This document shows positions 229 to 26,141 of a stretch of 64,000 nt of DNA, in pieces. The notes under the pieces are model-generated. The model worked only from the letters and a program-made list of their open reading frames with translations, had not been told where the DNA came from and did no database searches. The translations under genes were made by a program, and so were the position numbers. The stretch comes from Anaerococcus degeneri (GTDB lineage: Bacteria > Bacillota > Clostridia > Tissierellales > Peptoniphilaceae), in NCBI RefSeq assembly GCF_017874475.1, contig NZ_JAGGLO010000004.1, forward strand, positions 1 through 64,000, written 5' to 3'. Every line of letters begins with the position of its first letter. The first letter of the stretch is position 1.

Positions 229-2154
229 TTATTGGCTAGCTTTCAAATCCATAGTAAATACAGATCCACTTGGTATATTATCCGTTACACTTATTTCGCC
301 ACCATGGGCCTTAACTATAATCCTACAAAGATATAAGCCTAGACCTATACTCCTCTTGCTATCGATGATTTTGTTATTAGCCGAATAGAATTTTTGGAAT
401 ATTCTTTTCTTATCGGTATCTTCAATTCCTTTTCCATTATCTGCCACTTGGATTATGACTTTGTTTGCATCTTGGTAGGCTCTTATATTGATACTTGACC
501 CTTCAAAAGTATATTTTATAGCATTATCTACAAGGTTTATGATGACTTGTATTATTAACCTCACATCCATATCAGCCATTAGGTAGTCATCATCTATATC
601 AACAGTTATATTGTGATTTTTTTTATCTCTGCTTACATGCTTTAGGGCCTCTTCTATGACTTCTTCAACCATTTGTGGCTCTATTTTTAGTTTGCTTTTA
701 CCTTCTTCAACTCTAGTTACTGAAAGTAAATTTTCTATAAGATTCAGTAGCCACTGTGAATCATCATAAATATCTCTATATAGCCCTAATTTCATTGTTT
801 CTGTTAAGTTTTCCGAATTATTAAGTAGTATATGAGAATTTCCATAAATAGTTGTTAGGGGCGTTCTTAAGTCATGGGAGATTGATCTTAAAAGATTTGT
901 TTTCAATTGCTCATCTTTTATTCTCAAATTAGCTTCGTTTTTATCTTTTAAAATTTTTTCTTTCTCTAAAGCCAAAGACATATCTCCAAGGATTGCTAGT
1001 AAAATTTTATTTTCTACGGAATCTAGCCTATCTTTACCCAAATGTATACCTATAACCCCATACACACTTGTATTAAATCTGATTGCATAATATAAGTACT
1101 TGGCATCTGGCAAATATTCTGTGCCAGCACCTGCACTTTTGTTTTTGGCAAATACCCACTTTACTATTTCTAATTCTTTGAGAAATTCTTTATCAGCATC
1201 CCTAAAATCATCCTTGAAAATTAGTGGATCCTGAATTTCCCCATCTACTATATCGTAATAAACTATATTTCTATTTAGTAGGTTTGATAATTGATTACAG
1301 CCTGTTTCTATGATTTCGTGTTTGGATATTTTAGTCTGTAAAAGTTGATTTGTTTCTAACAAAAGCTTTGTTATATATGTCATATTTGATGAGTTCTTTG
1401 CATTTTTTCTTATCTGGCTTGCTAGCTTACTTGTCAAAAATGATACTATTAATAAGACTAAAAAAGTAATAATATATTCAGGATTAGATACTGATAAACT
1501 TAAAGTTGGCTTAGTAAAACAATAATTAAAGGCTAATACGCATATTACAGATGAAATAAAACTCACTAATTCATCATAAGTTACAAGGGCAATAAAAAAT
1601 ACACCTAGTATATAGATCATTATTATATTTGCATCACTGTAGCCAAAATCATAAAATATATAACCTATTAGAGTGCTGATTGCTAGTATTATAAAAGCAA
1701 TTAACAAATCTTTTGATATATTTTTGTTTTCTTTAAATCCATAAGTTTTGACCTTATCATTTATTGGAACAGCGTAAATATCTATTCTGTCAGATTTTTT
1801 TACCACTTGATCATATATGCTGGTATTTAAAGATAATAGCTTAAAATCATTTCGTTTTTTTCCTATTACAATTTTTTTTACTTTATATAGTTTTGCAAAG
1901 TTTACTATTTGGCTTGCTATATCGTCATCATATATAATCTCAACCATGGCCCCCATGTTTTCCGCTAGACTTAAATTGTCTTGTAGGTAGTCATTGTCCT
2001 TTTTTTCCTGAAACTTATCTCTATCAGATACATATAGAGCAATTAGTTTAGCTTTTTCATTTTGAGCTATCTCATTGGCTTCTTTTATTACCTGACTATT
2101 AGATTGGGATTCAGATATACATACTAATATCAAATCTCTATCAACTAAATCCAT
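229..2154 (-). CDS. kdpD: KdpD-type sensor histidine kinase lacking the N-terminal KdpD domain
   Basis: Membrane sensor kinase of the potassium-responsive KdpDE pair; it should autophosphorylate on His and phosphorylate KdpE. Order of domains: universal-stress-protein-like domain (about 1-135), four membrane segments (about 149-245, DUF4118), GAF-like domain (265-395), HisKA with SISHDLRTPL (His427), HATPase with N-box near 540-544, DNGKG (573-577) and GLGL (604-607). At 641 residues it is about 250 shorter than classical KdpD because it begins at the USP domain. The P-loop KdpD domain is absent here but present in the divergent gene at 8109. The start overlaps the end of kdpE by 14 bases, so translation is probably coupled. 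Kinase function is clear; the role of the missing domain is inference. Confidence 0.93.
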   Translation of the reverse strand: MDLVDRDLILVCISESQSNSQVIKEANEIAQNEKAKLIALYVSDRDKFQEKKDNDYLQDNLSLAENMGAMVEIIYDDDIASQIVNFAKLYKVKKIVIGKKRNDFKLLSLNTSIYDQVVKKSDRIDIYAVPINDKVKTYGFKENKNISKDLLIAFIILAISTLIGYIFYDFGYSDANIIMIYILGVFFIALVTYDELVSFISSVICVLAFNYCFTKPTLSLSVSNPEYIITFLVLLIVSFLTSKLASQIRKNAKNSSNMTYITKLLLETNQLLQTKISKHEIIETGCNQLSNLLNRNIVYYDIVDGEIQDPLIFKDDFRDADKEFLKELEIVKWVFAKNKSAGAGTEYLPDAKYLYYAIRFNTSVYGVIGIHLGKDRLDSVENKILLAILGDMSLALEKEKILKDKNEANLRIKDEQLKTNLLRSISHDLRTPLTTIYGNSHILLNNSENLTETMKLGLYRDIYDDSQWLLNLIENLLSVTRVEEGKSKLKIEPQMVEEVIEEALKHVSRDKKNHNITVDIDDDYLMADMDVRLIIQVIINLVDNAIKYTFEGSSINIRAYQDANKVIIQVADNGKGIEDTDKKRIFQKFYSANNKIIDSKRSIGLGLYLCRIIVKAHGGEISVTDNIPSGSVFTMDLKASQ

Positions 2155-2875
2155 TTATTTCATCTTCCCCTGATTTATTGATTCTAATCATCTTGTAGCC
2201 AACTCCAACATGAGTTTGGATATACTTATCGTCAGTTAATTTTTCTATCTTTTTTCTAAGAGAGGTCATATACACTCTCAAAGAAGAGAGATCAGATGCT
2301 AGGTAATTGACCCAAATGTTTTTTAGGATGTACTGATGTGTGAGAACCTTGCCAACATTTTCTGCTAATAAACATAATAAACTATATTCTATTGGCATTA
2401 AATGTATTTCTTCACCTTTAATAAATACGCTTCTCGAAGGATAATCTATTCTTATATCTCCATTTTCAAATGAAATTTTGTCTTCAACACTATTATTTTC
2501 AACATAGTTTATTCTTCTTAAGGTTGACCTAACTCTTGCAAGAAGTTCATCAACATTAAATGGCTTGGTCAAAAAATCATCTGCCCCTGCGTCCAAGGCT
2601 TCTATTTTATCTTCATCATTGGTCCTAGCGCTAATTACTATAACTGGAGTAGTCGAAAAATCTCTGAATTTTTTTATTATTTCTATTCCATCAATGTCAG
2701 GCAATCCCAAGTCAATAAAAACTATGTCATATTTATTTGAAGTCATTAGCTGTAGAGCATTTTTACCATCAATCGCTAGGTCATATTCATAATCATTTAT
2801 CTGCAATGTTGTTGATATCAAGTTTCTCACAGCTCTGTCATCTTCTACAATTAATATTTTTATATTTTCATTCAT
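2141..2875 (-). CDS. kdpE: KdpE response regulator (OmpR/PhoB family)
   Basis: DNA-binding response regulator expected to activate the kdp operon when phosphorylated by KdpD. The receiver domain spans about residues 5-118: acidic pair E11/D12-D13, phospho-acceptor D55 in VFIDLGLPD, S82 and K104 (FLTKPF). A winged-helix Trans_reg_C domain follows (about 135-233) with the typical YKMI ending. The 244-residue length is normal. It sits 85 bases after kdpC, behind a small hairpin, and overlaps kdpD. Its likely target is the phased TTAAAAT array at 7988-8037 (inference). Confidence 0.95.
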   Translation of the reverse strand: MNENIKILIVEDDRAVRNLISTTLQINDYEYDLAIDGKNALQLMTSNKYDIVFIDLGLPDIDGIEIIKKFRDFSTTPVIVISARTNDEDKIEALDAGADDFLTKPFNVDELLARVRSTLRRINYVENNSVEDKISFENGDIRIDYPSRSVFIKGEEIHLMPIEYSLLCLLAENVGKVLTHQYILKNIWVNYLASDLSSLRVYMTSLRKKIEKLTDDKYIQTHVGVGYKMIRINKSGEDEINGFS

Positions 2876-2921
2876 ATATACTTACCTTCTTTATAGCAAA
2901 ATATTGGTCAAATCATTCTAA

Positions 2922-2946
2922 GCCTCAAGTTATGATTACCTGAGGC
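2922..2946 (-). terminator. hairpin between kdpC and kdpE
   Basis: Arms GCCTCA (2922-2927) and TGAGGC (2941-2946), with extra pairing inside, form a compact hairpin in the only sizeable gap of the operon. No clear T-run follows on the minus strand. It may be a weak terminator or processing site that lowers regulator expression relative to the pump genes. Confidence 0.4.
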
Positions 2947-2960
2947 CTTATATTACAATA

Positions 2961-3566
2961 TTATTTTTTCATTTCACTTACTAAGTCTATGTTTAGTTTC
3001 AATACATTTACAGTTTGTTCACCAAAGATTCCCAAAGCTTTTTCACTAGTATTTTGTTTTATCAGTTGTTCTAAGTTTTCTTTGGAGAGATTTGTATTTT
3101 TTGCTACTCTATCAACTTGTAATTGAGCTGCTTTGACAGAAATGTGTGGATCAAGACCTGAGCCTGATTGGCTTATGATGTCTTCAGGGATATCTTCTTT
3201 TGATACCGCAGGATTTTCTTTAATAAACTTATCTATATCTTCGTTAATTCTTTTCTTTAAGTTAGGGTTACTTACTGCTAAGTTTTTACTACCAGAAGCT
3301 AATCCATCATACTTGTCTCCATCTTCATAGACATTGTAGTTAACAGCTGATGGTCTCGAATGAAATAATTTTGGATCAGTAAAATCTTGACCTATTAATT
3401 CTGAGCCAACTACTTCATCTCCCATCTTTATTAAACTTCCATTAGCTTGTTTTGGAAAGATAATTTGTGCAAGTACCGTCATTAAAAGTGGATATATAAT
3501 ACCACAGACTATAAATGCAAATATTGTAACAAAAAAAACTTGTTTATATTTTTTAATAGTTCTCAT
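2961..3566 (-). CDS. kdpC: KdpC, K+-transporting ATPase subunit C
   Basis: Small single-pass subunit of the KdpFABC potassium pump, associated with KdpA/KdpB and thought to help nucleotide binding or complex assembly. One N-terminal membrane segment (about 13-35) is followed by the KdpC extracytoplasmic domain. Recognisable family motifs are FHSRPSA, SGSGLDPHIS and QVDRVA. At 201 residues it is near the usual length. A good AAGGAG site precedes the ATG. The gene follows kdpB by 9 bases and ends the structural part of the operon. Confidence 0.95.
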   Translation of the reverse strand: MRTIKKYKQVFFVTIFAFIVCGIIYPLLMTVLAQIIFPKQANGSLIKMGDEVVGSELIGQDFTDPKLFHSRPSAVNYNVYEDGDKYDGLASGSKNLAVSNPNLKKRINEDIDKFIKENPAVSKEDIPEDIISQSGSGLDPHISVKAAQLQVDRVAKNTNLSKENLEQLIKQNTSEKALGIFGEQTVNVLKLNIDLVSEMKK

Positions 3567-3575
3567 TATAACTCC

Positions 3576-5630
3576 TTAAATTCCTAACATTCCAAGTAAA
3601 GGAAATACTAATATATCTATTAGTTTTATACCAATAAAAGGACAAATTACACCACCAAGTCCGTAAATCAACATATTCTTTCCTAACATTTTTGAAGCTG
3701 ACATCGGTTCATATTTAACACCTTTCATTGCCAAAGGAATTAGACAAGGAATAATAATTGCATTAAATATTAGTGCTGAAATAATAGCACTTGATGGACT
3801 ATTCAATCCCATAATGTTCAATACTTTCATTTGAGGTATAGCAAGAGTAAATATAGCTGGTATTATAGCAAAATATTTGGCAATATCATTAGCAATAGAA
3901 AATGTTGTCAAAGAACCTCTTGTTATAAGTAGCTGTTTACCAATCTCTATAACTTCCAATATTTTGGTTGGATCTGAATCCAAATCAACCATGTTTGCTG
4001 CTTCTTTTGCTGAACTTGTACCACTGTTCATAGCAATACCAACATCAGCTTGAGCCAAGGCTGGAGCATCGTTGGTTCCATCTCCTGTCATGGCTACAAT
4101 TTTACCTAGGGTTTGTTCTTTCTTTATGGCTTCTATCTTATCCTCAGGTTTACATTCTGCTATATAGCCGTCAACACCAGCTTCTGCTGCAATTGTAGCT
4201 GCAGTAAGAGGGTTATCTCCAGTACACATTATGGTCTTTATCCCTATTTTTCTAAGTCTTTCAAACCTTTGTCTAAGTCCTGGCTTAACCGTATCTTTCA
4301 AATAGATAATTCCATAAATTACATTATCTACACAAACGACTAGTGGAGTACCCCCTAATTTTGAAATACTTTCTACTTTTGCTTGTAGGTCGCTTGGTAC
4401 ATCTCCACCTCTTTCAGTAATAAACTTTATTATCGCTTCCCCAGATCCCTTGCGTATCATGACACCGTTTTTTAAATCAATCCCACTCATCTTGTTTGCT
4501 GCAGTAAATTCTACAAAAGACGCATCTTCGTAATCTGCTGGATTAACTTTAGAACCCAATTTTTTTGCAAGTTCAACTGTAGATTTACCTTCAGGGGTGT
4601 CATCTTTTAGTGATGATATCATGGCATATTCTATTAAATCTGATTTGTCGATTCCATCGACATTTATAAAATCACTAGCTAACCTATTTCCAAAGGTTAT
4701 TGTTCCCGTTTTGTCTAGAATCATTGTATCAACATCACCACAAGCTTCTACGGCCTTGCCTGACATTGCTATGACATTGAATCTAGTAACCCTATCCATA
4801 CCAGCTATACCGATTGCGCTAAGTAATGCACCAATTGTAGTAGGGATTAGGCAAACCATTAAAGCTATCAATGTAGAAACTGAAATTTTTACATTAGAAT
4901 AGTTAGCTATTGGATATAGGGTTATGATAACTATCAAAAATATAATAGTTAAGGAAACCAACAAGGTATTTAGAGCAATCTCATTTGGTGTTTTTTGTCT
5001 AGAGGCTCCTTCTACAAGAGATATCATCTTATCCAAAAATGATTCACCAGGATCTGAGCTTATACGAACTTTAATCCAGTCTGATACAACAAGTGTACCT
5101 CCCGTCACTGAAGAAAAATCTCCTCCACTTTCTTTAGTTACTGGTGCGGATTCACCAGTGATTGCAGATTCATCAATACTTGCTATACCTTCAATTATTT
5201 CACCGTCATTAGGGATTATTTCGCCTACTTTTACTAAAACTACGTCTCCTTTTTTTAGGTCATTACTAGAGATTTCAATTTCTTTTCCAGCATCTAAAAT
5301 TTTTCTAGCCTTAGTATCCTTTTTTGTTTTTTTCAATGTCTCTGCTTGTGCCTTTCCCCTACCTTCAGCTACGGATTCGGCGAAATTTGCAAATAGTAAA
5401 GTTATAAACAAAATAATGGAAACAAGCATACTGTATTTACTTGCATTGTCGCTTCCATCATTTATCAAATTTGGTAAAAAAGCAAGTAATAGACAAATTA
5501 TAAATCCAATTTCTACTACAAACATTACAGGGTTTTTTATCATATACTTAGGATTTAATTTTAAGAATGCCCCTCTAATAGAAGTCTTCATTATATCTTT
5601 ACTTACAAATTTTGTTTTCTTATTAACCAT
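3576..5630 (-). CDS. kdpB: KdpB, K+-transporting P-type ATPase catalytic subunit
   Basis: Catalytic subunit of KdpFABC: it hydrolyses ATP through an aspartyl-phosphate intermediate to drive K+ uptake across the membrane. Visible are the actuator motif TGES, the phosphorylation motif DKTGT (Asp near residue 306 with the start used here), [12 protein letters not shown] and several membrane segments at both ends. An in-frame ATG at 5654 exists inside the end of kdpA. I chose ATG 5630 because AGGAGG lies four bases upstream of it, giving 684 residues, close to the family length. The gap to kdpA is 8 bases. Confidence 0.96.
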
Positions 5631-5638
5631 ATTTCCTC

Positions 5639-7381
5639 CTATAGTACCAACCATTCTGCTATTGGTCCTAAAGCTAGTACTGGCAAAAATGTTAGTGCTG
5701 CAAATATATAAACAATTATTACTAAAATAATTGAAAAAGTTAAGTTATTAGTTTTTAATGTTCCAGCAGTTTCATTGATATCTATTTTTTTAGAAAGATT
5801 TCCTGCTATTGCTAGCTGGATAATAATAGCTAAATATCTTCCAAAAAACATTACTAATCCACAAGTTATATTCCAAAAGATTGTATTGTCAGCCAAACCT
5901 TCAAAACCAGAGCCATTATTCGCTGCTGATGAAGAATATTCGTATAGTATTTGACTTAGTCCGTGGAATCCTGGATTAGTAATACCCTCAAGTCCAGGAT
6001 TTATACTAACTGCTAGTGCAGAAAAACCTAGAATCAAAAGTGGGTGAATGATAATTGATAAAGCTGCAAGTTTCATCTCATTACCTTCAATTTTTTTACC
6101 TAGATATTCCGGTGTCTTACCAATCATAAGACCGCATATAAATACTGCTAAGATAGCATAGATTAACATATTCATAAGTCCTACACCTGCTCCACCAAAT
6201 ACAACATTTAACATCATGTGAAGCAAAGGAACTAGGCCACCCAAAGGTGTAAGTGTATCATGCATATTGTTAACAGTTCCAGTAGTAAATGACGTTGTAA
6301 CTGTTGTAAATAATGAAGATTGGGCAATGCCAAAACGCATCTCTTTTCCTTCCATATTTCCCATATTGTGAGATATTCCAGAAAGACTTGCCCCGTTTAC
6401 ACCATTAAGCTCATTATGATAGCAAATACCCAAGCCTATTACAAATAATATGGACATGGCAATAAATATTGACTGGCCTTCTTTGCCCAGCCAAACTTTC
6501 TTAGCCATAGCTTTATCTGTGTGCTCTGGTATTTGTTTATTTTCACTTGCTGATTTTTTAATAAACTTATCATGTGCCATCTTTCCAAAAATGAAAACAC
6601 ATGATCCTGGCAATAACATCATAGAAATTAATTCTATAATATTTGAAATAATATTAGGGTTTTCAAAAGGAGTTGATGAGTTGGCTCCAAAAAATCCTCC
6701 ACCATTAGTACCCAAATGTTTAATTGCTTCCAATGCTGCGACTGGACCAGCACCAAGTTCTTGGTTTTTGCCCTCAATAGTTTTAATTAAGATATTAGAA
6801 TTAAAGTTTTGGATAACTCCTTGAGACACCAATAATAATCCAACAATAATAGATGCTGGTAATAAAAATCTTGTTATGATTTTTATAAAATCTACAAAGA
6901 AGTTTCCCATCTTCTCTCCAAGTATTCCTCTTATCATTGCTACGCAAGCTGCATATCCACTAGCTGCTGAAGTGAACATCATCATAATAATCACAAACAT
7001 TTGAGAAAAATATGACAAGCCTGATTCACCAGCATAGTGTTGCAAGTTAGTATTAGTCATAAAAGAAATAATTGTATTAAAAGCTAAAGTTTCCTCCATA
7101 GAGCCTATTTTATTTGGATTAAATATCCCTATAGATTGAATTCTAAGAACTAGATATGAAAGTAGAACCAAACACGCATTTAAAAGAATCAATGACAATG
7201 CATATTCTTTCCAGTCCATATCACTTTTTTCAATCTTTAAAATTTTAAAAATTCCTGAATCCACTTTATCAAATAAAGGATCAGCAAATGTTTTTTTATT
7301 GTTAGTCATTTTATATAAGTAATTTCCACATGGAAATATAATGACTAAGAATATTAGTAATGTTAATAATATTTGTAACAT
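5639..7381 (-). CDS. kdpA: KdpA, K+-transporting ATPase subunit A
   Basis: Channel-like potassium-binding subunit of the Kdp pump, related to the SKT superfamily. It has about ten membrane segments, and the pore-loop signature [12 protein letters not shown] (about 228-239) lies in one of the selectivity-filter repeats. The 580 residues are slightly longer than the common 555-570 because of a linker after [11 protein letters not shown]. The start has an AGGAG site. It follows the TPR gene by 25 bases and precedes kdpB by 8. Confidence 0.96.
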
Positions 7382-7406
7382 AATCTCTCCTACTTACACA
7401 ATTTTC

Positions 7407-7724
7407 TTACGAAAATATATATTTTTTATTTGTGCCATATATTGCTAAATTTCCCAAATTTTTACTAGCAGGTTCATAGCAAGGGTCTAATGCCCAAGCA
7501 GCCCTGAAGTGTTTCATAGCCAATTCATGGTTTCCTCTTATTTCCATCAAAATACCTAACAAATTGTGAGGGACTGGACTATGTGGATATTCTTTCATTT
7601 TATCTTTTACCAATTCTAAACATTCGTTAAGATTTCCCAAATCAATTTTTAATTTTATTAAGGAACAAAAATCATTCAAACAATTATTAAAATCACATTT
7701 AGTTAAATTCATAATTTCCTTCAT
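7407..7724 (-). CDS. small TPR-repeat protein inside the kdp operon
   Basis: A 105-residue soluble protein with no signal peptide or membrane segment. The middle part (about 33-90) shows tetratricopeptide-type helices: NECLELVKDKMKEYP, then PVPHNLLGILMEIRGN and AMKHFRAAWALDPCYEPA. The C terminus is short. TPRs usually mediate protein contacts; the partner here is unknown, but its place between kdpF and kdpA suggests a role in pump assembly or regulation (inference). ATG 7724 has GGGAG upstream; ATG 7712, preceded by AAGGA, is also possible. Confidence 0.8.
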   Translation of the reverse strand: MKEIMNLTKCDFNNCLNDFCSLIKLKIDLGNLNECLELVKDKMKEYPHSPVPHNLLGILMEIRGNHELAMKHFRAAWALDPCYEPASKNLGNLAIYGTNKKYIFS

Positions 7725-7745
7725 ACTTATCTCCCAAAACTATAT

Positions 7746-7823
7746 TTAAAATTTCTCAGGGTTAATCAGTGCATAAAACAAATAGCATAAAACCCCTAAA
7801 ATAACAATTAATAATAGTAACAT
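7746..7823 (-). CDS. kdpF: KdpF, small stabilising subunit of the K+ pump
   Basis: A 25-codon gene, short enough to be missed by most gene finders. The peptide is one hydrophobic helix ending in YALINPEKF, which matches the characteristic C terminus of KdpF (YALINAEAF in E. coli, from memory). GGAGG lies seven bases before the ATG. KdpF is a lipid-like single-helix subunit that stabilises KdpABC. Its position just upstream of the TPR gene and kdpA agrees with the normal FABC order. Confidence 0.88.
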   Translation of the reverse strand: MLLLLIVILGVLCYLFYALINPEKF

Positions 7824-7840
7824 ATAAACCTCCACAATAA

Positions 7841-7936
7841 TTAATTACTTGTAATTTTTTTATCTATCCAATTGACAAATAATTTTAATATTAAAAATGA
7901 AATGATAATTATAGCTATCATAATAAGGTCTAACAT
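7841..7936 (-). CDS. 31-residue membrane peptide leading the kdp operon
   Basis: First open frame of the operon, with AGGAG in a good position before the ATG. It encodes one hydrophobic helix (MLDLIMIAIIII start, then SFLILKLF) followed by a short charged tail, WIDKKITSN. I recall that clostridial kdp operons can carry extra small hydrophobic ORFs ahead of kdpA, and this fits that pattern, but I assign no function. It could be a leader peptide or a pump accessory subunit. Confidence 0.65.
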   Translation of the reverse strand: MLDLIMIAIIIISFLILKLFVNWIDKKITSN

Positions 7937-7969
7937 TAATCACTCCTCCTATTCTCTAACTATATGTGT

Positions 7970-7998
7970 AATATACCAACTTTTACCTTAAAATAGTT
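7970..7998 (-). promoter_or_regulatory. probable kdp operon promoter with weak -35
   Basis: On the minus strand TATATT (7970-7975) is a good -10 box about 35 bases before the first gene. No consensus -35 is found at the expected place (7993-7998). That position instead overlaps the first TTAAAAT motif. This is what an activator-dependent promoter would look like. Confidence 0.5.
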
Positions 7999-8037
7999 TT
8001 AAAATATACACCATAGACATTAAAATTGTATTAAAAT
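7988..8037. promoter_or_regulatory. phased TTAAAAT array, candidate KdpE binding sites
   Basis: TTAAAAT occurs on the plus strand at 7988, 7999, 8020 and 8031. The spacings are 11, 21 and 11 bases, that is, on the same face of the helix. OmpR-family regulators bind direct half-sites about 10-11 bases apart, so two KdpE dimers would fit. The array lies between the divergent kdp operon and the KdpD-like gene and could control both. The motif is seen; the binding protein is inferred. Confidence 0.55.
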
Positions 8038-8046
8038 TCACTGATT

Positions 8047-8076
8047 TTGCCTTTTTTTTAATATATATAGTAAAAT
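8047..8076 (+). promoter_or_regulatory. candidate promoter for the divergent KdpD-like gene
   Basis: TTGCCT (8047-8052) and TAAAAT (8071-8076) are separated by 18 bases, and the gene starts at 8109 after an AAGAAGGA ribosome site. The region is very AT-rich, so other -10 choices exist. Confidence 0.4.
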
Positions 8077-8108
8077 AAAATCAGAAATAAATAAAGAAGG
8101 ATAATTTT

Positions 8109-10034
8109 ATGGAAAAAAAAGGTGAATTGACAATCTTCTTCGGATACTGTGCAGGTGTCGGCAAGACATACAATATGCTAGAAGTTGCCCACGAAAAGTA
8201 CCTAGAAGGCATAGATGTGGTTGTTGGTTATGTAGAACTTCATGATAGAAAAGATACTCTAGCATTAATGAATGGTCTAGATATAATAGACTATAAAAAA
8301 ATAAACTATAAAGATCATATTTTTAATGAACTGGATATAGATAAGGCCCTAGATAGAAAACCTGACATCATATTAGTAGATGAGCTTGCCCATACCAATG
8401 CACCAGGCAGTAGACATAAAAAAAGATACCAAGATGTAGAGGAATTACTTAGAGCAGGCATTGATGTATACACAACATTAAATGTCCAACACCTAGAGAG
8501 CCTTCATGATATAGTAGAATCAATTACTAATATAAAAGTCAATGAACGTATACCTGATTATGTTTTTGATAATGCTGACCATATAAAAATAATAGATATT
8601 GAAGTAGAACAATTAATTGAAAGATTAAAGGAAGGAAAAATATATAATTATTCCCAGTCTAAAAAAGCCCTAGATAATTTTTTTACTATAGATAATCTTA
8701 TCTCGCTTAGGGAAATAGCTTTAAGAAGATATGCTGATAAAATAAATTTATATACTGACGAAAAAAATAAACCATTTTTAAAAGAACATATACTAGTGTG
8801 TCTTGGCCCATCACCTACTAACCAAAAAGTAATCAGAACTGCTTATAGGATGGCTAACTCTTTCCATGCAGAGTTTAGTGCCCTATATGTAGAAACATCT
8901 GAAAGCAAAAATTTTTCTAATACAGAAAAAAATAACTTACAAAAAAATATAGACTTGGCTAAACATCTAAAAGCTAATATCGTTTCTTCTTATGGTGATG
9001 ATATATCATTTCAAATTAGCCAATATGCAAAACTTAGTGGAGTATCAAAGCTTGTCTTGGGAAGATCCTCACAGAAAATATCATTTTTTAATAAAACAAC
9101 TATAATTGATGAGATTACTAAGGATGCTCCAAATCTTGATATATTCATAATCCCTGATGCTAACAGTGAGTATAAGAAAAAAAATATAAGGCTAGATGAA
9201 TTTGTGCATTTTGATAGAGAAGATCTGATAGTAACTTTGCTCATACTGTTAGCTACAACTGTACTATCTTATGCCTTATTTATTTTTGATTTTAATACAA
9301 CTAACATAGTTTTGCTTTATACTCTATCATCCTGCATAGTTGGATACACAACAAAACACCCTATATACAATATGCTTGCTCTCTTGCTAAATATACTTAT
9401 TATAGATTTTATATTTATACCACCCTATTATTCTTTGAAGATTTACTCAAAAGAGTATCTGATGATATTTATAATAATGATCATAGTTTCTTTTTTCATT
9501 AGCCTAATGCAAAATAGACTAAAAAAGGAAAATATACTAACAACTCAGCAGTCACACAGCTTAGAGGTTCTGCTTAAAACAAGCCAGAGATTGCAGCTAA
9601 GCAAAAACTATGATGAAGTAATGTATGAAACCTGCTATCAACTACATAAGCTCCTAAACAAGGTAATAATATTTTATCCTGTTTTCAAAAGCTCGCTTTT
9701 GTCGCCAATAATTTATAACCCAAAAAACGTCGCAAATATGAAAGAAATATATTTGCAAGACTCCGAGAAAACTGTAGCAAAATGGGTATTTTTAAATAAT
9801 GATAGTGCTGGTGCAGGCACAAATACTCTAACTAATGCTAATGGCTTATATTTTGCCATTAGAAAAAATAGTGCAGTCTATGGCGTTGTCGGCATAGATA
9901 TGTCAGATAAAAGTATCGGTAGTCAATTGTCAGTAAATGATAAATCTCTGCTTATAGCCATGCTAAACGAGATCGCTCTGGCAATTGATTCATTGGAAAA
10001 TAATTCTTGCTATATAAACCTTAATAAAATTTAA
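8109..10034 (+). CDS. KdpD N-terminal sensor protein without kinase domains
   Basis: A 641-residue protein with the N-terminal KdpD domain (about 1-210): Walker A GYCAGVGKT (12-20) and Walker B-like DIILVDELAHTN (about 86-97), followed by APGSRHKKRYQDVEELL. Then come a USP-like domain (225-352), four DUF4118 membrane segments (about 375-470) and a GAF-like domain (490-620). The protein ends where HisKA would begin; no H-box or ATP-binding kinase domain follows, and the downstream DNA does not continue the frame. It therefore cannot signal alone. It probably senses and modulates the kinase encoded at 229-2154, which lacks exactly this N-terminal domain (inference). Confidence 0.88.
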   Translation: MEKKGELTIFFGYCAGVGKTYNMLEVAHEKYLEGIDVVVGYVELHDRKDTLALMNGLDIIDYKKINYKDHIFNELDIDKALDRKPDIILVDELAHTNAPGSRHKKRYQDVEELLRAGIDVYTTLNVQHLESLHDIVESITNIKVNERIPDYVFDNADHIKIIDIEVEQLIERLKEGKIYNYSQSKKALDNFFTIDNLISLREIALRRYADKINLYTDEKNKPFLKEHILVCLGPSPTNQKVIRTAYRMANSFHAEFSALYVETSESKNFSNTEKNNLQKNIDLAKHLKANIVSSYGDDISFQISQYAKLSGVSKLVLGRSSQKISFFNKTTIIDEITKDAPNLDIFIIPDANSEYKKKNIRLDEFVHFDREDLIVTLLILLATTVLSYALFIFDFNTTNIVLLYTLSSCIVGYTTKHPIYNMLALLLNILIIDFIFIPPYYSLKIYSKEYLMIFIIMIIVSFFISLMQNRLKKENILTTQQSHSLEVLLKTSQRLQLSKNYDEVMYETCYQLHKLLNKVIIFYPVFKSSLLSPIIYNPKNVANMKEIYLQDSEKTVAKWVFLNNDSAGAGTNTLTNANGLYFAIRKNSAVYGVVGIDMSDKSIGSQLSVNDKSLLIAMLNEIALAIDSLENNSCYINLNKI

Positions 10035-11608: not shown

Positions 11609-11925
11609 TAAAAGACCGCAGCTTTTAACTACGGTCTAATTTTTTGTCCAAATGTAAACCACTTGGAACTATTATTCAATTTATTCTTTTTTACAAATGT
11701 TCCCATTTTAATCCCAGTTACAGTTTTTCATCTTCTGTAACCGTTGATTTTACAAAGTTTTTAATTTTTTTGCGATCATTCCCATTCTTCTTTTCCAAAC
11801 GTCCGATATATACCAAACAATTCAAAATACTATATTCTATTTTTTAGAGTACCACTAAATTCACCTAATTATAAGACGTTTTCAAATTTTTAGTCCCGTC
11901 CCAGTCCCAGTACCAGAGGAAAAAC
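11597..11925. repeat. guaA-type att junction, copy 1 (distal end of the 12.8 kb element)
   Basis: This 317-base gene-free stretch has two parts. The left part (about 11610-11775) starts with a GACCGCAG/CTACGGTC hairpin and is roughly 93 percent identical by eye to 24477-24635; its first 85 bases also match 25967-26050. Then comes a core, TTTTGCGA followed two bases on by ATTCCCATTC, matching the last codons of guaA plus the bases behind them (26122-26141). The right part (about 11795-11925) resembles 24650-24770 and ends in short AGTCCC repeats that could be integrase arm sites. It is a junction between two integrated elements. Confidence 0.72.
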
Positions 11926-12727: not shown

Positions 12728-13354
12728 CTATAATCCATTTCTTTTTCGTTGTAGAAGAACAATATATTGTAATATGCTTCTTATCCTGCTGTCATTGGAA
12801 TTCTTTTCATAAAATCCATACATATTCATAAGCAAAAAATCTAATCTTCTAATTTCTTCACTTAATTTAAGTTTATTATAAAAACTGCAAATCACGCTGT
12901 CCGTTATGTATTCTTTTTCTATTCTAATATAATAATCCTCATCTCTGTAAAATAATTTTGTTATACTTCCATCGTCAACATTAAACATAGAAGAATATTC
13001 TTCACTCCATTTAAAATCCCTTTTTGCCAGATTGCATTTTCTACACGATAAAACCAAATTATTTATCTCACCAGCTTTTATAGAATCACCATTAAATGAT
13101 GCCTCGCAAATAAAGTGATCTATTTCGAATAGTTCAGAACTTATTACATCTGTTGTGATACCGCAATAAGCACATTTATTACTATATATTAACCTAAATT
13201 TTTTATTATATTCACTACCTTTTTTATTTATTTGATTATATATAATTTTAACTCTAGGATGTTCCTTTTGTATTCTCTTCCCTAAAGAATTTTTTTCAGA
13301 CACAATATCATTTTTTAAATTATAATATTTTGTATTTCTATAATCATTGTTCAT
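12728..13354 (-). CDS. HNH endonuclease, likely effector of the cassette
   Basis: A 208-residue nuclease with a zinc-stabilised HNH fold: CAYC (Cys61, Cys64), EIDHF (Asp79-His80), an Asn in NNLVLSC (98-99) and CRKCNLAKRDF (Cys104, Cys107). The C-terminal part is helical and charged. It should cleave or nick DNA with a metal ion. The start overlaps the end of the receiver gene by 11 bases, which indicates coupled translation. It is the last gene of a five-gene run, the usual place for an effector. Whether it acts on unmodified DNA (restriction) or indiscriminately (abortive infection) cannot be read from sequence. Confidence 0.83.
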   Translation of the reverse strand: MNNDYRNTKYYNLKNDIVSEKNSLGKRIQKEHPRVKIIYNQINKKGSEYNKKFRLIYSNKCAYCGITTDVISSELFEIDHFICEASFNGDSIKAGEINNLVLSCRKCNLAKRDFKWSEEYSSMFNVDDGSITKLFYRDEDYYIRIEKEYITDSVICSFYNKLKLSEEIRRLDFLLMNMYGFYEKNSNDSRIRSILQYIVLLQRKRNGL

Positions 13355-13940
13355 ATAGTTTTCTCATTTCTTCAAAAGCATTAATCAGATTATCTATATC
13401 AACCTTTGTTAAATTATCATAATCTAACACCCCATTTATTGAATTCTCCATTTTCTCAAATAAAAATTTTTCAACATATTTTTTAGATGAAATATTTTTC
13501 AGAATATTTCTATTTAAAATAATGTTTTCTGTGGCCTTCTCTATTACCCTGTCCCAATTCTCATTGAAAAATAAGTTTGGATCACAATGATAGGTACTAG
13601 AGTTGTATTTTTTTAATGTACTATACTCCATTTTTTCTTGATACTGCGTGATAACTATTATTTCTTTAAAAGGAAATATCTTTTTTATTATCAAGCCAAG
13701 CTCTTCTCCTGAAATTTTATTATCTAGTACAGTACCATTTTCAAAAAGCATTGAATCCAAAAATAATATATCAGATTTTTGAATTTCTTCACTGTTAAGT
13801 AAATTCTCATATGAATAATTGCTTTCAAATTTCAATTCCAAATATTCATAACGAGCCTTATCATTTGAGTATCCTTTTAAATATTTTGAAACAAACAAAT
13901 CTATTTTATCATCTACATAAAGCATAGTTATCAGTTGCAT
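13344..13940 (-). CDS. response-regulator-like receiver protein
   Basis: 198 residues. The N-terminal half has receiver-domain features: LYVDDK (acidic pair Asp10-Asp11), phospho-acceptor Asp62 in DILFLDSMLFENG, and Thr98 in VITQYQ. The second half is helical, without a recognisable DNA-binding or enzymatic domain. The first ATG of the long frame (14012) lies inside the upstream gene. I use ATG 13940, which has GGAGGAG overlapping the end of that gene and one base between stop and start. It is the natural phospho-partner of the adjacent GHKL protein and may pass the signal to the HNH nuclease (inference). Confidence 0.72.
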   Translation of the reverse strand: MQLITMLYVDDKIDLFVSKYLKGYSNDKARYEYLELKFESNYSYENLLNSEEIQKSDILFLDSMLFENGTVLDNKISGEELGLIIKKIFPFKEIIVITQYQEKMEYSTLKKYNSSTYHCDPNLFFNENWDRVIEKATENIILNRNILKNISSKKYVEKFLFEKMENSINGVLDYDNLTKVDIDNLINAFEEMRKLYEQ

Positions 13941-13941
13941 G

Positions 13942-16080
13942 TTATAAAGTCTCCTCCATCTCAAAAATAAATTCAAATCCTTTTTCACCTGAAATATTAA
14001 TAATCTCTCCATTTTGAAAATTAATTGTATTATTAATTATCCACATCCCAAGCCCATGACCATTGGCTCTGCTTGTTTCATGTGGTTCTAAAATAATTCT
14101 TGGATTATTTAAATATTTTTCTGGCAATCCTTTTCCATTATCATAATAAGAAATTTTCAACTTATTGCAGTCTTTACTGATCATAATTTTTATTTTTAAT
14201 TCATTTGATTGACTGTTTTGTTGAACGCTATTTAATATTAAATTATCAAATATTGTATAGAATGTGTCTTTTGATATGTTAAATTCTAAAAAGTCATCCA
14301 CGCATATTTCTACATTTAACCAAGCATAGTCTCTTTCCCATTTTTTTATTATTTGACTCACAATTTCTTTGACATTCAATTTCATAGCAAAAAATTGTCC
14401 CTTTTCTACTTTTTCTAAAATCGCATCAATGAACCTAAGTATCTTTTTTACTGCAGCATGATTATTTTCCAATAAACCTGGTATGTCTTCAAATGCAAAT
14501 TTTCTATTTTCCGGATCATTAACTATGTCCCAAACTTTATATTTTTTTAAAGAATTTATTATGAAGTCATAAGAAGGTTCGATTTGATTTCTATCATTGT
14601 TTATCTCATGTGCTATTGATGTTGCTTTCATACCCGATGTTGCTAAAGCATTCAAAATTCTTACATCATATCTATACCTATTTTCAACATCCGCTTTTTC
14701 TTGTTTAAGTTTTTTACTATCCTGATTAAACAACTTAAGTTCTTTAATAAGTTTCACCTTATCGTTTTTATTTAAATTATTTATCATTTTAGGATTTCTT
14801 ACGATTTCATCTGATATTCTCTCAGTAAAGTTTTCTTCAACAATATTTTTTTTATTAATATTTCGTATTATTTTTTGTCTATAACGTTCAAATTCTTTGA
14901 TACCAATTAATATTATTTGAATGAATAATTGATAATATATATTTTCATCTAATCCTTGTCTATTCATAAGGTCTTGTAGTACTTTATTTTCTTCTTTATC
15001 TATTAATACGAACCCAGATATTTGATTTTCTCTTACTCGCCAAGCACCTGTTGGATGTGATGCAGCTGCTGGTGACTTCCTTGATCTTTTTCCTAATCCT
15101 AGCCAATCTTTCTCGCCTTCAAACGAAGATATGCTAAAAGCATTTCTATAAAGAACAACACCACTATCTAAAATTTCATCAGTTCTTAGGTATTTATATA
15201 GAAACTTTTCTTTATCATAATTTGTAGCATTTAAATTGAAAAATAAATTTGCCGAAAATCTTCCAAGTTTCTCTAGAACTGTAATTAATCCTTCTCCATA
15301 AACATCAAAAATTTCATTACCTTCCAATTCATCTATAATATTTATTTTTCTATTGTGTTGATTCAAATCCATTCCTTCACAATACTTTTTCGCATCAATA
15401 GAAAACTCGTCTGAAAATACTGATACCAATAACTCGCCTTTTATATACTCTAAATTAATAAACGACCTACAATTTTTTCCTGGCTCAGGATCTGGAAAAT
15501 GTAAATTCACAAATTCATTATAATCATTGGCTATAATTTGTATTCTCATAGCCGTATCATTATATGTTTTTTCAAGATATTTGTTTAATTTCTTAATCCT
15601 ATTCAGAGTCCACTTTTCCCTAAGATTATTTATTATAATACAGGTACCTTTATTCTCTATACTTGAATTTATCTCTAATGTAGATGTATTCCAATCCGTT
15701 GCCCAAATAACGCCGTCTTTATGTTCCTTTTTACTATATAACTGAATATTTTTACCTAATCTTGATAAAGCAAATCTACCTACACCTTTTGCTCCGGCTT
15801 GAACCCTAACTTTATTGTTTGAATCTATTAGGTCATATCCTTTATTGCTTTTTCCAATATGCATCCAGTGCTTTTTTATATCCTCTGAATCCATACCAAC
15901 TCCATCATCAGTTATTTTTAACGTATTTTTATCTATGAATTCAAGTTTAACAAGCAACGCTTTTGCATCATATGAGTTCTTAATCAATTCTAAAATTGCA
16001 GCCTCGTCTTTGGAAAAATTTTGTACTCCTAATAACTCCGCAATTGTACTATCTTCAATACTATACTTGAGATATTCCAT
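13942..16080 (-). CDS. two-module GHKL ATPase: MORC/Hsp90-like N-terminus plus histidine-kinase-like C-terminus
   Basis: 712 residues, no membrane segment. N-terminal ATPase: ELIKNSYDA (about 31-39), DDGVGM (58-63), GAKGVGRFA (96-104), followed by an S5-like middle region. A coiled linker (430-470) leads to a kinase-like module: SIAHEINN (His491), N-box NLILNSVQQN (613-622), DNGKGLP (647-653) and GHGLGM (674-679). Two ATP-binding GHKL folds in one chain are unusual. MORC/MutL-like GHKL ATPases are known in bacterial restriction loci, and the C-terminal half looks able to phosphorylate the receiver encoded next. AGGAGG before ATG 16080 supports the start. The role as sensor or switch of a defence system is inferred. 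Confidence 0.78.
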   Translation of the reverse strand: MEYLKYSIEDSTIAELLGVQNFSKDEAAILELIKNSYDAKALLVKLEFIDKNTLKITDDGVGMDSEDIKKHWMHIGKSNKGYDLIDSNNKVRVQAGAKGVGRFALSRLGKNIQLYSKKEHKDGVIWATDWNTSTLEINSSIENKGTCIIINNLREKWTLNRIKKLNKYLEKTYNDTAMRIQIIANDYNEFVNLHFPDPEPGKNCRSFINLEYIKGELLVSVFSDEFSIDAKKYCEGMDLNQHNRKINIIDELEGNEIFDVYGEGLITVLEKLGRFSANLFFNLNATNYDKEKFLYKYLRTDEILDSGVVLYRNAFSISSFEGEKDWLGLGKRSRKSPAAASHPTGAWRVRENQISGFVLIDKEENKVLQDLMNRQGLDENIYYQLFIQIILIGIKEFERYRQKIIRNINKKNIVEENFTERISDEIVRNPKMINNLNKNDKVKLIKELKLFNQDSKKLKQEKADVENRYRYDVRILNALATSGMKATSIAHEINNDRNQIEPSYDFIINSLKKYKVWDIVNDPENRKFAFEDIPGLLENNHAAVKKILRFIDAILEKVEKGQFFAMKLNVKEIVSQIIKKWERDYAWLNVEICVDDFLEFNISKDTFYTIFDNLILNSVQQNSQSNELKIKIMISKDCNKLKISYYDNGKGLPEKYLNNPRIILEPHETSRANGHGLGMWIINNTINFQNGEIINISGEKGFEFIFEMEETL

Positions 16081-24462: not shown

Positions 24463-24770
24463 AATATGTACGCAAAAAGACCGCAGCTTGAAACTACGGT
24501 CTAATTTTTGTCCAAATGTAAACCTCTTGGAACTATTATTCAATTTATTCTTTTTAACAAATGTTCCCATTTTAATCCCAGTTACAGTTTTTAATCTTCT
24601 GTAACCATTGATTTTACAAGTTTTTTTAGTTTTTTTGCTACTTCTTTTAAAATGTACTATACAACTAAAACCGTTCAAAATACAAGGTTCTTTTTTATAA
24701 TTTCGTTAATCCGTATAAATATAATACGTTTTAAAATTTTTAGTCCTGTCCTTGTCCCAAAGCCTTAATC
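24463..24770. repeat. att junction, copy 2, between two guaA-linked elements
   Basis: Gene-free. The first part (about 24463-24635) begins AAAATATGTACGCAAAAAGA, has the GACCGCAG hairpin and matches copy 1 (11610-11775) at roughly 93 percent by eye. The following TTTTTTTGC and CTTCTTTT match copy 1, but the ATTCCCATT core is missing, as if a dozen bases were deleted. The right part (24650-24770, with TTCAAAATAC and ACGTTTTAAAATTTTTAGTC) resembles 11805-11895. The first part is the inner end of the 12.8 kb element; the right part is the outer end of the small remnant element. Confidence 0.7.
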
Positions 24771-25954: not shown

Positions 25955-26141
25955 TATGTATACAAAAAGACCGCAGCTTAAAACTACGGTCTTATTTTTT
26001 GTCCAAATGTAAACCACTTGGAACTATTATTTAGTTTATTCTTTTTAGCTTCCAGTACCATTTGAGTACCAGTAACCATTTTTCATTCTCTTTATAGCTT
26101 GTAATTAAGCCATTTTAGAAAATTTTGCGACTATTCCCATT
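25955..26141. repeat. att junction, copy 3, at the guaA 3' end
   Basis: Begins AAAATATGTATACAAAAAGA with the GACCGCAG hairpin. About 85 bases match copies 1 and 2, then the sequence diverges and carries AGTACC repeats (about 26055-26078). It ends at TTTTGCGA and ATTCCCATTC, the latter being the last guaA codons (reading EWE). The 391-base gap between the MerR gene and guaA is otherwise empty. Confidence 0.72.

Follow-up and report, generated by a model that had tools for sequence, protein, structure and literature searches.

In Escherichia coli, KdpD joins two kinases on a single chain: its KdpD domain is an atypical serine kinase (ASK) that phosphorylates Ser162 of the pump subunit KdpB and thereby stops the pump, while a histidine kinase (HK) serves the response regulator KdpE (PMC11018627). 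The KdpD domain alone is described there as sufficient for the phosphorylation of KdpB, a reaction that the short KdpD of Deinococcus geothermalis also performs on the E. coli protein (PMC11018627). Split KdpDs have been reported, the most common published form pairing a KdpD/Usp chain with a chain made of a transmembrane region (TM), GAF and DHpCA (PMC11018627). Here we describe a differently divided KdpD of Anaerococcus degeneri, encoded in a stretch of 64,000 nucleotides (contig NZ_JAGGLO010000004.1, positions 1 to 64,000, hereafter the window) in which two proteins of 641 residues flank the kdp pump genes. The protein encoded at 8109-10034 on the + strand is named the ASK chain, and that encoded at 229-2154 on the - strand the HK chain. 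We judge it probable, with real reserve, that the two enzymes of KdpD are here carried by two chains that both have a TM/GAF sensor of their own, the ASK chain acting on KdpB and the HK chain on KdpE.

The ASK chain has the order KdpD-Usp-TM-GAF and ends about 19 residues after the GAF domain, with no DHp domain. Pfam recognizes its KdpD domain (PF02702, residues 3-212, E-value 9e-92) and DUF4118 (residues 374-475), and neither HisKA nor HATPase. The HK chain carries Usp (residues 9-121), DUF4118 (151-256), HisKA (418-485) and HATPase_c (530-639), PF02702 being absent; its H, N and G boxes are intact, with SHDLRTPL, NLVDNAIKY, DNGKGI and GLGLY starting at residues 426, 540, 572 and 604, respectively. 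The Usp domain of the ASK chain and the GAF domains of both chains were overlooked by Pfam. The Usp domains of both chains are matched by phmmer to the USP structure of Staphylococcus aureus KdpD (7ji4), and both GAF domains are recognized by hidden Markov models (HMMs) built for this analysis. An AlphaFold model of the ASK chain, computed from 16 sequences (mean predicted local distance difference test score (pLDDT) 79.8; predicted template modelling score (pTM) 0.40), matches the solved KdpD N-domain 2r8r, 7ji4 and the GAF domain of E. coli KdpD (4y2f/4qpr), with TMt values up to 0.95, 0.83 and 0.80. Both chains stay below the cut-off of 1123 of the full KdpD equivalog NF007793 (312 bits for the HK chain and 431 for the ASK chain), as testifies to each being only part of a KdpD. 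A first-pass annotation, made from the letters alone, had described the two 641-residue proteins, the USP, DUF4118 and GAF-like parts that they share, and the presence of a kinase and absence of a KdpD domain in the HK chain, all of which was found. It had also named a full-length KdpD elsewhere in the genome as a finding that would speak against a divided function; the genome (2.17 Mb, 99.87% complete, 31 contigs) yields one PF02702 match and two DUF4118 matches, so that no full-length KdpD was found outside the locus.

The ASK chain keeps the residues that are essential in E. coli: the Walker A motif GYCAGVGKT, D91/E92 (equivalent to D109/E110) and an arginine aligned to R190. E. coli W39 is replaced by Tyr, which is likewise found in 140 of 151 KdpD-domain records (113 of 123 distinct sequences). 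A KdpB with the TGES serine, residue 169, is encoded in the same genome. The activity of the E. coli KdpD domain, the retained catalytic residues and the TGES motif of KdpB together make it very probable that the ASK chain is a kinase, predicted to be a serine kinase directed at KdpB. The NCBIfam model of a KdpD-like non-kinase potassium sensor, NF038185 (373 positions), matches the KdpD-Usp part of the ASK chain (E-value 4e-104), which has TM and GAF besides, and its cut-off of 550 is not reached (348.8 bits). The first-pass annotation had seen correctly that the ASK chain has a KdpD domain and no HisKA or HATPase; its statement that the chain holds no kinase, and hence its view of it as the non-kinase input half of a heterodimer, does not agree with the serine kinase residues of that domain. 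A division of KdpD function between two complementary proteins, the middle domains being present in both, is supported, while the proposed separation of input from output is not: the HK chain keeps its own Usp, TM and GAF, and the split would thus separate outputs.

The pair resembles E. coli KdpD in its five modules, the catalytic residues of both kinases, the KdpE partner and the TGES target (PMC11018627), and differs in being two chains instead of one, with Usp-TM-GAF present twice. The published split class also has ASK and HK on separate chains, but its ASK chain lacks TM and GAF and its HK chain lacks Usp, whereas both chains of the window keep all three. The gene order is different as well. 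In D. radiodurans, Anabaena and Alicyclobacillus, as described in PMC11018627, the ASK gene lies downstream of the pump and the HK gene is separate, whereas in the window it is the HK gene that closes the pump row, with the ASK gene divergent from it. Deinococcus radiodurans, with kdpBAC-kdpD-N and a divergent sensor kinase/response regulator unit (PMC5716572), shares with the window two divergent units and a two-piece KdpD, but there kdpD-N belongs to the pump operon and it is the kinase that diverges, the reverse of the present case. KdpDs with truncated DHpCA from Campylobacterota and Archaea have, by the description in PMC11018627, the domain order of the ASK chain; the same source places KdpDs without HK domains mostly in species without KdpE, whereas the window has KdpE and an HK-bearing chain. 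What differs here is the presence of Usp, TM and GAF on both chains and of HK, not ASK, in the pump row. This arrangement was not noticed in the open-licence PMC literature among the matches listed, and the supplementary tables of PMC11018627 may list it.

Among 130 genomes of the family, PF02702 scores over its cut-off in eight, all of which have kdpA, and kdpA in nine. The 641/641 pair is intact and in the same gene order in seven of the 130: six genomes of the window's genus, the window included, and G110 from another genus. The eighth PF02702 genome, G091, has an ordinary split into a 398-residue KdpD-Usp chain and a TM-GAF-HK chain, and the ninth kdpA genome, G003, gives no PF02702 match. 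Elsewhere in the family, weak PF02702 matches of 18-25 bits, most of them to frames about 450-480 residues long, were rejected as unrelated P-loop proteins, presumably the GTPase of the signal recognition particle. A contig scan gave 553 relatives; the best 80, by similarity to the ASK chain, comprise 71 full-length proteins, six that are complete without a histidine kinase, two that run off the contig end and one split into two open reading frames (ORFs). The six are L079 (from G110), L080, L091, L117, L143, which has a separate TM-GAF-HK protein and KdpE nearby, and L151, with a full-length KdpD nearby. L080, from [Clostridium] spiroforme An567, carries the same cassette in the same order with chains of 649 and 635 residues, so that equal chain length is not conserved. 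In a phylum sample of 398 genomes, PF02702 scores over the cut-off in 59 (barely so in G291, G529 and G610), and open frames of 640-700 residues are confined to G000 and G394. Of 439 records returned by a plasmid search, none reaches 60% identity, and the annotation "sensor histidine kinase KdpD" is carried by 13 of the 15 listed. Eight genomes (G603, G281, G352, G270, G313, G622, G465 and G568) have two PF02702 domains in one frame of 753-806 residues, the first scoring below the second, perhaps a doubled short KdpD with one worn copy; the four frames examined (L161, L172, L180 and L188) are ordered KdpD-Usp-KdpD-Usp.

The ASK chain is clearly under purifying selection. The ratio of nonsynonymous to synonymous divergence (dN/dS) of its gene is 0.058-0.077 between G023 and the other six genomes, and between G000 and G023 dN amounts to 0.070 at a dS of 1.80 in Usp and to 0.093 at a dS of 1.58 in TM. 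The HK-chain pairs, with dS at most 0.072 and dN/dS of 0.13-1.03, are too close for a strong statement. The ASK gene of G023 (L035 8324-10249) looks like a mosaic, with 94-100% DNA identity to the window in bases 1-480 and in the GAF part and 71-86% in 480-1440, its middle being strongly diverged at synonymous sites, which points to recombination with a relative outside the sample. Gene conversion from the HK gene was rejected as the source of the Usp-TM stretch, which is still 71-86% identical to the ASK DNA of the window.

Both chains were compared with 73 core full-length KdpDs drawn from the best 80 of the 553 relatives. The median identities of the ASK chain are 61% for KdpD (71% among the full-length proteins themselves), 47% for Usp (58%), 25% for TM (49%) and 36% for GAF (45%); those of the HK chain are 31% for Usp (58%), 37% for TM (49%), 37% for GAF (45%) and 53% for HK (60%). 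The ASK TM and the HK Usp are the most strongly diverged. Between the ASK chains of the window and C. spiroforme, identity is 67% in Usp, 48% in TM and 51% in GAF, as against matched full-length medians of 54, 47 and 41%, which corresponds to the 97th, 51st and 87th percentiles among 1,593 full-length pairs matched for KdpD identity. For the HK chains, Usp identity (37%) lies below all 1,007 matched pairs, while TM (47%) and GAF (47%) fall at the 25th and 55th percentiles. These percentiles point to an HK Usp that is drifting and an ASK membrane region that changed early and is now held; for the ASK chain, early change followed by constraint does not look like decay.

The alternative that survives best, which we nevertheless regard as unlikely, is a heteromeric sensor, in which TM/GAF contacts would hold the chains together and the HK chain would receive nucleotide and c-di-AMP (cyclic di-AMP) input, or scaffolding, from the ASK chain. 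The constraint on TM and GAF of the ASK chain would fit such an assembly, as would the joint presence of both chains in all seven genomes of the clade and in C. spiroforme and their sister position in TM-GAF trees, which is expected for paralogues of a homodimer. The HK chain has, however, the complete Usp-TM-GAF-HK order by itself, and an ASK chain seems able to dispense with TM and GAF, to judge from the ordinary split of G091. Similar kinase-less KdpD-Usp-TM-GAF proteins occur at L091, L117 and L189 with no histidine kinase gene seen at the locus; they speak less strongly against a heterodimer than they might, as L091 and L117 were checked at the locus only and G394, the genome of L189, has a full-length KdpD elsewhere (L190). 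We consider it improbable that the ASK chain is mainly a transcriptional scaffold or a c-di-AMP sink and not a kinase of the pump. KdpD(1-395) of E. coli by itself makes kdp expression constitutive (PMC2714519), and Usp is the best kept of the middle domains of the ASK chain (67%, window against C. spiroforme); against this stand the complete serine kinase site, the TGES target and the activity of the short D. geothermalis KdpD on E. coli KdpB (PMC11018627). That the ASK chain is a decaying, functionless remnant of a KdpD that lost its kinase can hardly be maintained: the much diverged TM and the missing DHp domain would suit it, but the strong purifying selection largely refutes it, the chain is intact in seven genomes and C. 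spiroforme, its catalytic residues are intact, and the adjoining gap with its boxes is conserved.

The trees, from which near-identical copies and, in the later ones, also L189 and L143 were omitted, bear on the origin of the two kinases. Both TM-GAF trees unite the ASK chain and the HK chain as sisters (Shimodaira-Hasegawa-like approximate likelihood ratio test (SH-aLRT) 92 in the first tree; 91/82, not starred, in the second). The first places them with L109, a full-length protein (98); the second sets every full-length row on the opposite side of the branch and thus demonstrates no nesting. In the tree built from Usp, TM and GAF, the HK chain groups with L109 (99/99), and other full-length KdpDs surround the ASK chain. 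For that tree the approximately unbiased (AU) test rejects one clade of both chains at p 0.020 and gives p 0.0755 when L109 is included; the HK-chain Usp is fast-evolving and may mislead, so that the tree is not decisive. The KdpD-domain tree groups the ASK chain with the full-length L071, L088 and L109 (98/87) and the HK-domain tree groups the HK chain with the full-length L129 (100/95), the bootstraps having settled in neither. Grouping with L109 is not rejected for either chain (p 0.47 and 0.20). The two chains thus likely derive from full-length KdpD, and a single duplication behind both, on which the trees conflict, is plausible. Duplication with opposite losses, as first proposed for the pair, accords with the placement of one or both chains among full-length KdpDs, whereas the sister relation that it implies is found in some trees and not in others.

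The gap between the ASK gene and the pump row holds two KdpE-type boxes. With a pattern that was picked after the alignment of the gap had been seen, the window has two perfect boxes against 0.01 expected, and none of 100 shuffles has two. Both are kept in 7/7 genomes, and a looser TTAAAAY-N4-TTAAAA is present in C. spiroforme. Genome-wide, the exact box has three sites, one of them outside the kdp gap (C5:120679), and a reversed control has one; the third site, whose neighbours look by their appearance like a DegV-type gene and a gene for a large surface protein, may be due to chance. KdpE half-sites of E. coli are described as 6-bp AT-rich direct repeats 5 bp apart (PMC3264566), which is the same 11-bp period. 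Upstream of kdp the locus has direct AT-rich half-sites at an 11-bp spacing, as expected of a KdpE-regulated promoter. The degenerate form TTAARAT-N4-TTAARAT was sought in up to 700 bases before 58 other kdpA genes, those with fewer than 400 bases upstream having been dropped. With at most one mismatch it occurs in 23/58 on the strand opposite kdpA and in none on the other strand or in reversed controls; with two mismatches, in 38/58 and 2 on the two strands, and in 13 and 0 of the reversed controls. Before 554 other ORFs of these loci, some of which share the gap, it is found with at most one mismatch in 23 and 11 cases on the two strands. This form was chosen after the data had been seen, and the strand bias is for that reason the fairer part of the test. 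Lying between the divergent units, the boxes may co-regulate the ASK gene and the pump operon, and KdpE would then control the ASK gene through them.

A diadenylate cyclase domain is present in the genome. The c-di-AMP motif of the KdpD USP has been defined as (A/G/C)xSxSx2N with a Tyr/Phe in beta-2, and S. aureus S244A loses c-di-AMP binding (PMC8214093); reduced binding has been reported for S244A and Y271A (PMC4686210). The HK chain keeps this motif in 7/7 genomes and in C. spiroforme.

Several observations weigh against our reading. The choice of the box pattern after the fact is one; another is that, with one mismatch allowed, three boxes are found against 1.06 expected, a number reached in 10/100 shuffles. 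Promoter-like sites in the gap are not above shuffles (9 against 6.3, standard deviation 2.8). Ranked against the 73 full-length proteins, all domains of both chains come near the bottom (rank 0-5), and the ASK TM, at a median of 25% against 49%, is so far from the full-length ones that it may no longer sense K+. Finally, the position of S. aureus S244 is Gly in the ASK chain of 5/7 genomes and C. spiroforme, and Ser in G023 and G034. Among 93 distinct Usp sequences of full-length KdpDs, 90 have Ser there and 3 have Gly, and ten short KdpD-Usp proteins have five Ser, three Thr, one Gln and one Asn; in these alignments Gly is uncommon, although among short ASK chains this site cannot serve as a firm guide.

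In the proposed division of labour between two kinases, low K+ would be perceived by the TM/GAF sensor of the HK chain and turn on autophosphorylation at the histidine of SHDLRTPL. The phosphate would pass to KdpE, which would bind the two boxes at 7988-8037 and activate the pump operon and probably the divergent ASK gene too. When K+ is restored, or c-di-AMP is high, the KdpD domain of the ASK chain would use ATP to phosphorylate Ser169 of KdpB and stop the pump. The brake would thus be made together with the pump and yet be governed by its own sensor, the two chains acting independently of one another. Only tentatively do we extend this to an evolutionary scheme, in which a full-length KdpD became two dedicated kinases with duplicated and retuned sensors under one bidirectional KdpE-box promoter, the result being a feed-forward brake that answers to a separate signal, c-di-AMP or K+. 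The drifting HK Usp and an ASK membrane sensor that changed early and is now selected in its new form would belong to this scheme.

The remaining features of the locus are given in Table 1. As the first-pass annotation had stated, the chains flank the kdp operon: kdpE, kdpC, kdpB, kdpA and a TPR-like ORF lie between them on the - strand. The row on this strand runs from two small hydrophobic ORFs through the TPR-like protein, kdpA, kdpB, kdpC and kdpE to the HK gene, which is the last and overlaps kdpE by 14 bases. The hydrophobic ORF of 29 codons looks KdpF-like, a name we assume from its appearance only. Lookalikes of the TPR-like protein are found near KdpD/KdpE-like pairs elsewhere (L194, L195, L116, L086, L087 and L097).

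Table 1 Features of the kdp locus in the window
Feature	Position	Strand	Remarks
HK chain	229..2154	-	641 aa; Usp-DUF4118-GAF-HisKA-HATPase; KdpD-like histidine kinase without KdpD (serine kinase) domain
HisKA + HATPase_c of HK chain	238..903	-	PF00512, PF02518
GAF region of HK chain (approximate)	940..1374	-	HMM built for this analysis
DUF4118 (membrane region) of HK chain	1387..1704	-	PF13493
Usp domain of HK chain	1792..2130	-	PF00582 residues 9-121; 7ji4 match; keeps published c-di-AMP motif residues, fast-evolving
kdpE response regulator	2141..2875	-	244 aa; Response_reg + Trans_reg_C; best NCBIfam match PRK10529 KdpE, below its cut-off
kdpC	2961..3566	-	PF02669
kdpB	3576..5654	-	TIGR01497; TGES, target serine = residue 169 (E. 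coli S162)
kdpA	5639..7381	-	PF03814, TIGR00680
TPR-like protein, ahead of kdpA	7407..7724	-	105 aa; relative at same place in C. spiroforme cassette
Hydrophobic ORF	7746..7835	-	29 codons
Hydrophobic ORF	7841..7936	-	31 codons
KdpE-type box 1	7988..8005	+	TTAAAAT-N4-TTAAAAT
KdpE-type box 2	8020..8037	+	TTAAAAT-N4-TTAAAAT; 32 bases from box 1
ASK chain	8109..10034	+	641 aa; KdpD-Usp-TM-GAF; predicted membrane-anchored serine kinase for KdpB; divergent from kdp row
KdpD (atypical serine kinase) domain	8115..8744	+	GYCAGVGKT, aromatic Y21, D91/E92, arginine aligned to R190
Usp domain of ASK chain (approximate)	8772..9173	+	phmmer, HMM, model; Gly at S. aureus S244 position
DUF4118 membrane region of ASK chain	9228..9533	+	Pfam
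GAF domain of ASK chain (approximate)	9549..9974	+	HMM, AlphaFold model

An intrinsic terminator-like site was not found in 7380-8200, nor was a c-di-AMP riboswitch in the window, whose only Rfam matches at gathering thresholds are three to SpR18_sRNA (RF02446; 111-149 bits) at 11618-11748, 24483-24612 and 25973-26105, all on the - strand. These matches are strong though the genome's family includes Peptoniphilus and not Streptococcus, and the element looks dispersed. At 12731-16080 on the - strand, a 712-residue protein with two HATPase domains, a 222-residue protein that Pfam leaves unmatched and an HNH endonuclease whose PtuB-like matches are weak are possibly a defence cassette. The flanks of the kdp cassette differ between genomes, and in G034 the ASK gene is adjoined by ORFs (L037 6742-8192) that we take to be transposase-like; the cassette may therefore move as a unit.

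It has been asked whether the serine and the histidine kinase are controlled separately in KdpDs that have both K+-sensing and c-di-AMP sites (PMC11018627). In a one-chain KdpD the two outputs are hard to part, whereas the pair described here would be a natural separation-of-function system; with a Usp-TM-GAF sensor on each chain, deleting or purifying single chains could link input to output. The same paper proposes that separate chains once fused into full-length KdpD (PMC11018627). The present case suggests that separate chains can also be secondary, derived from a full-length KdpD.

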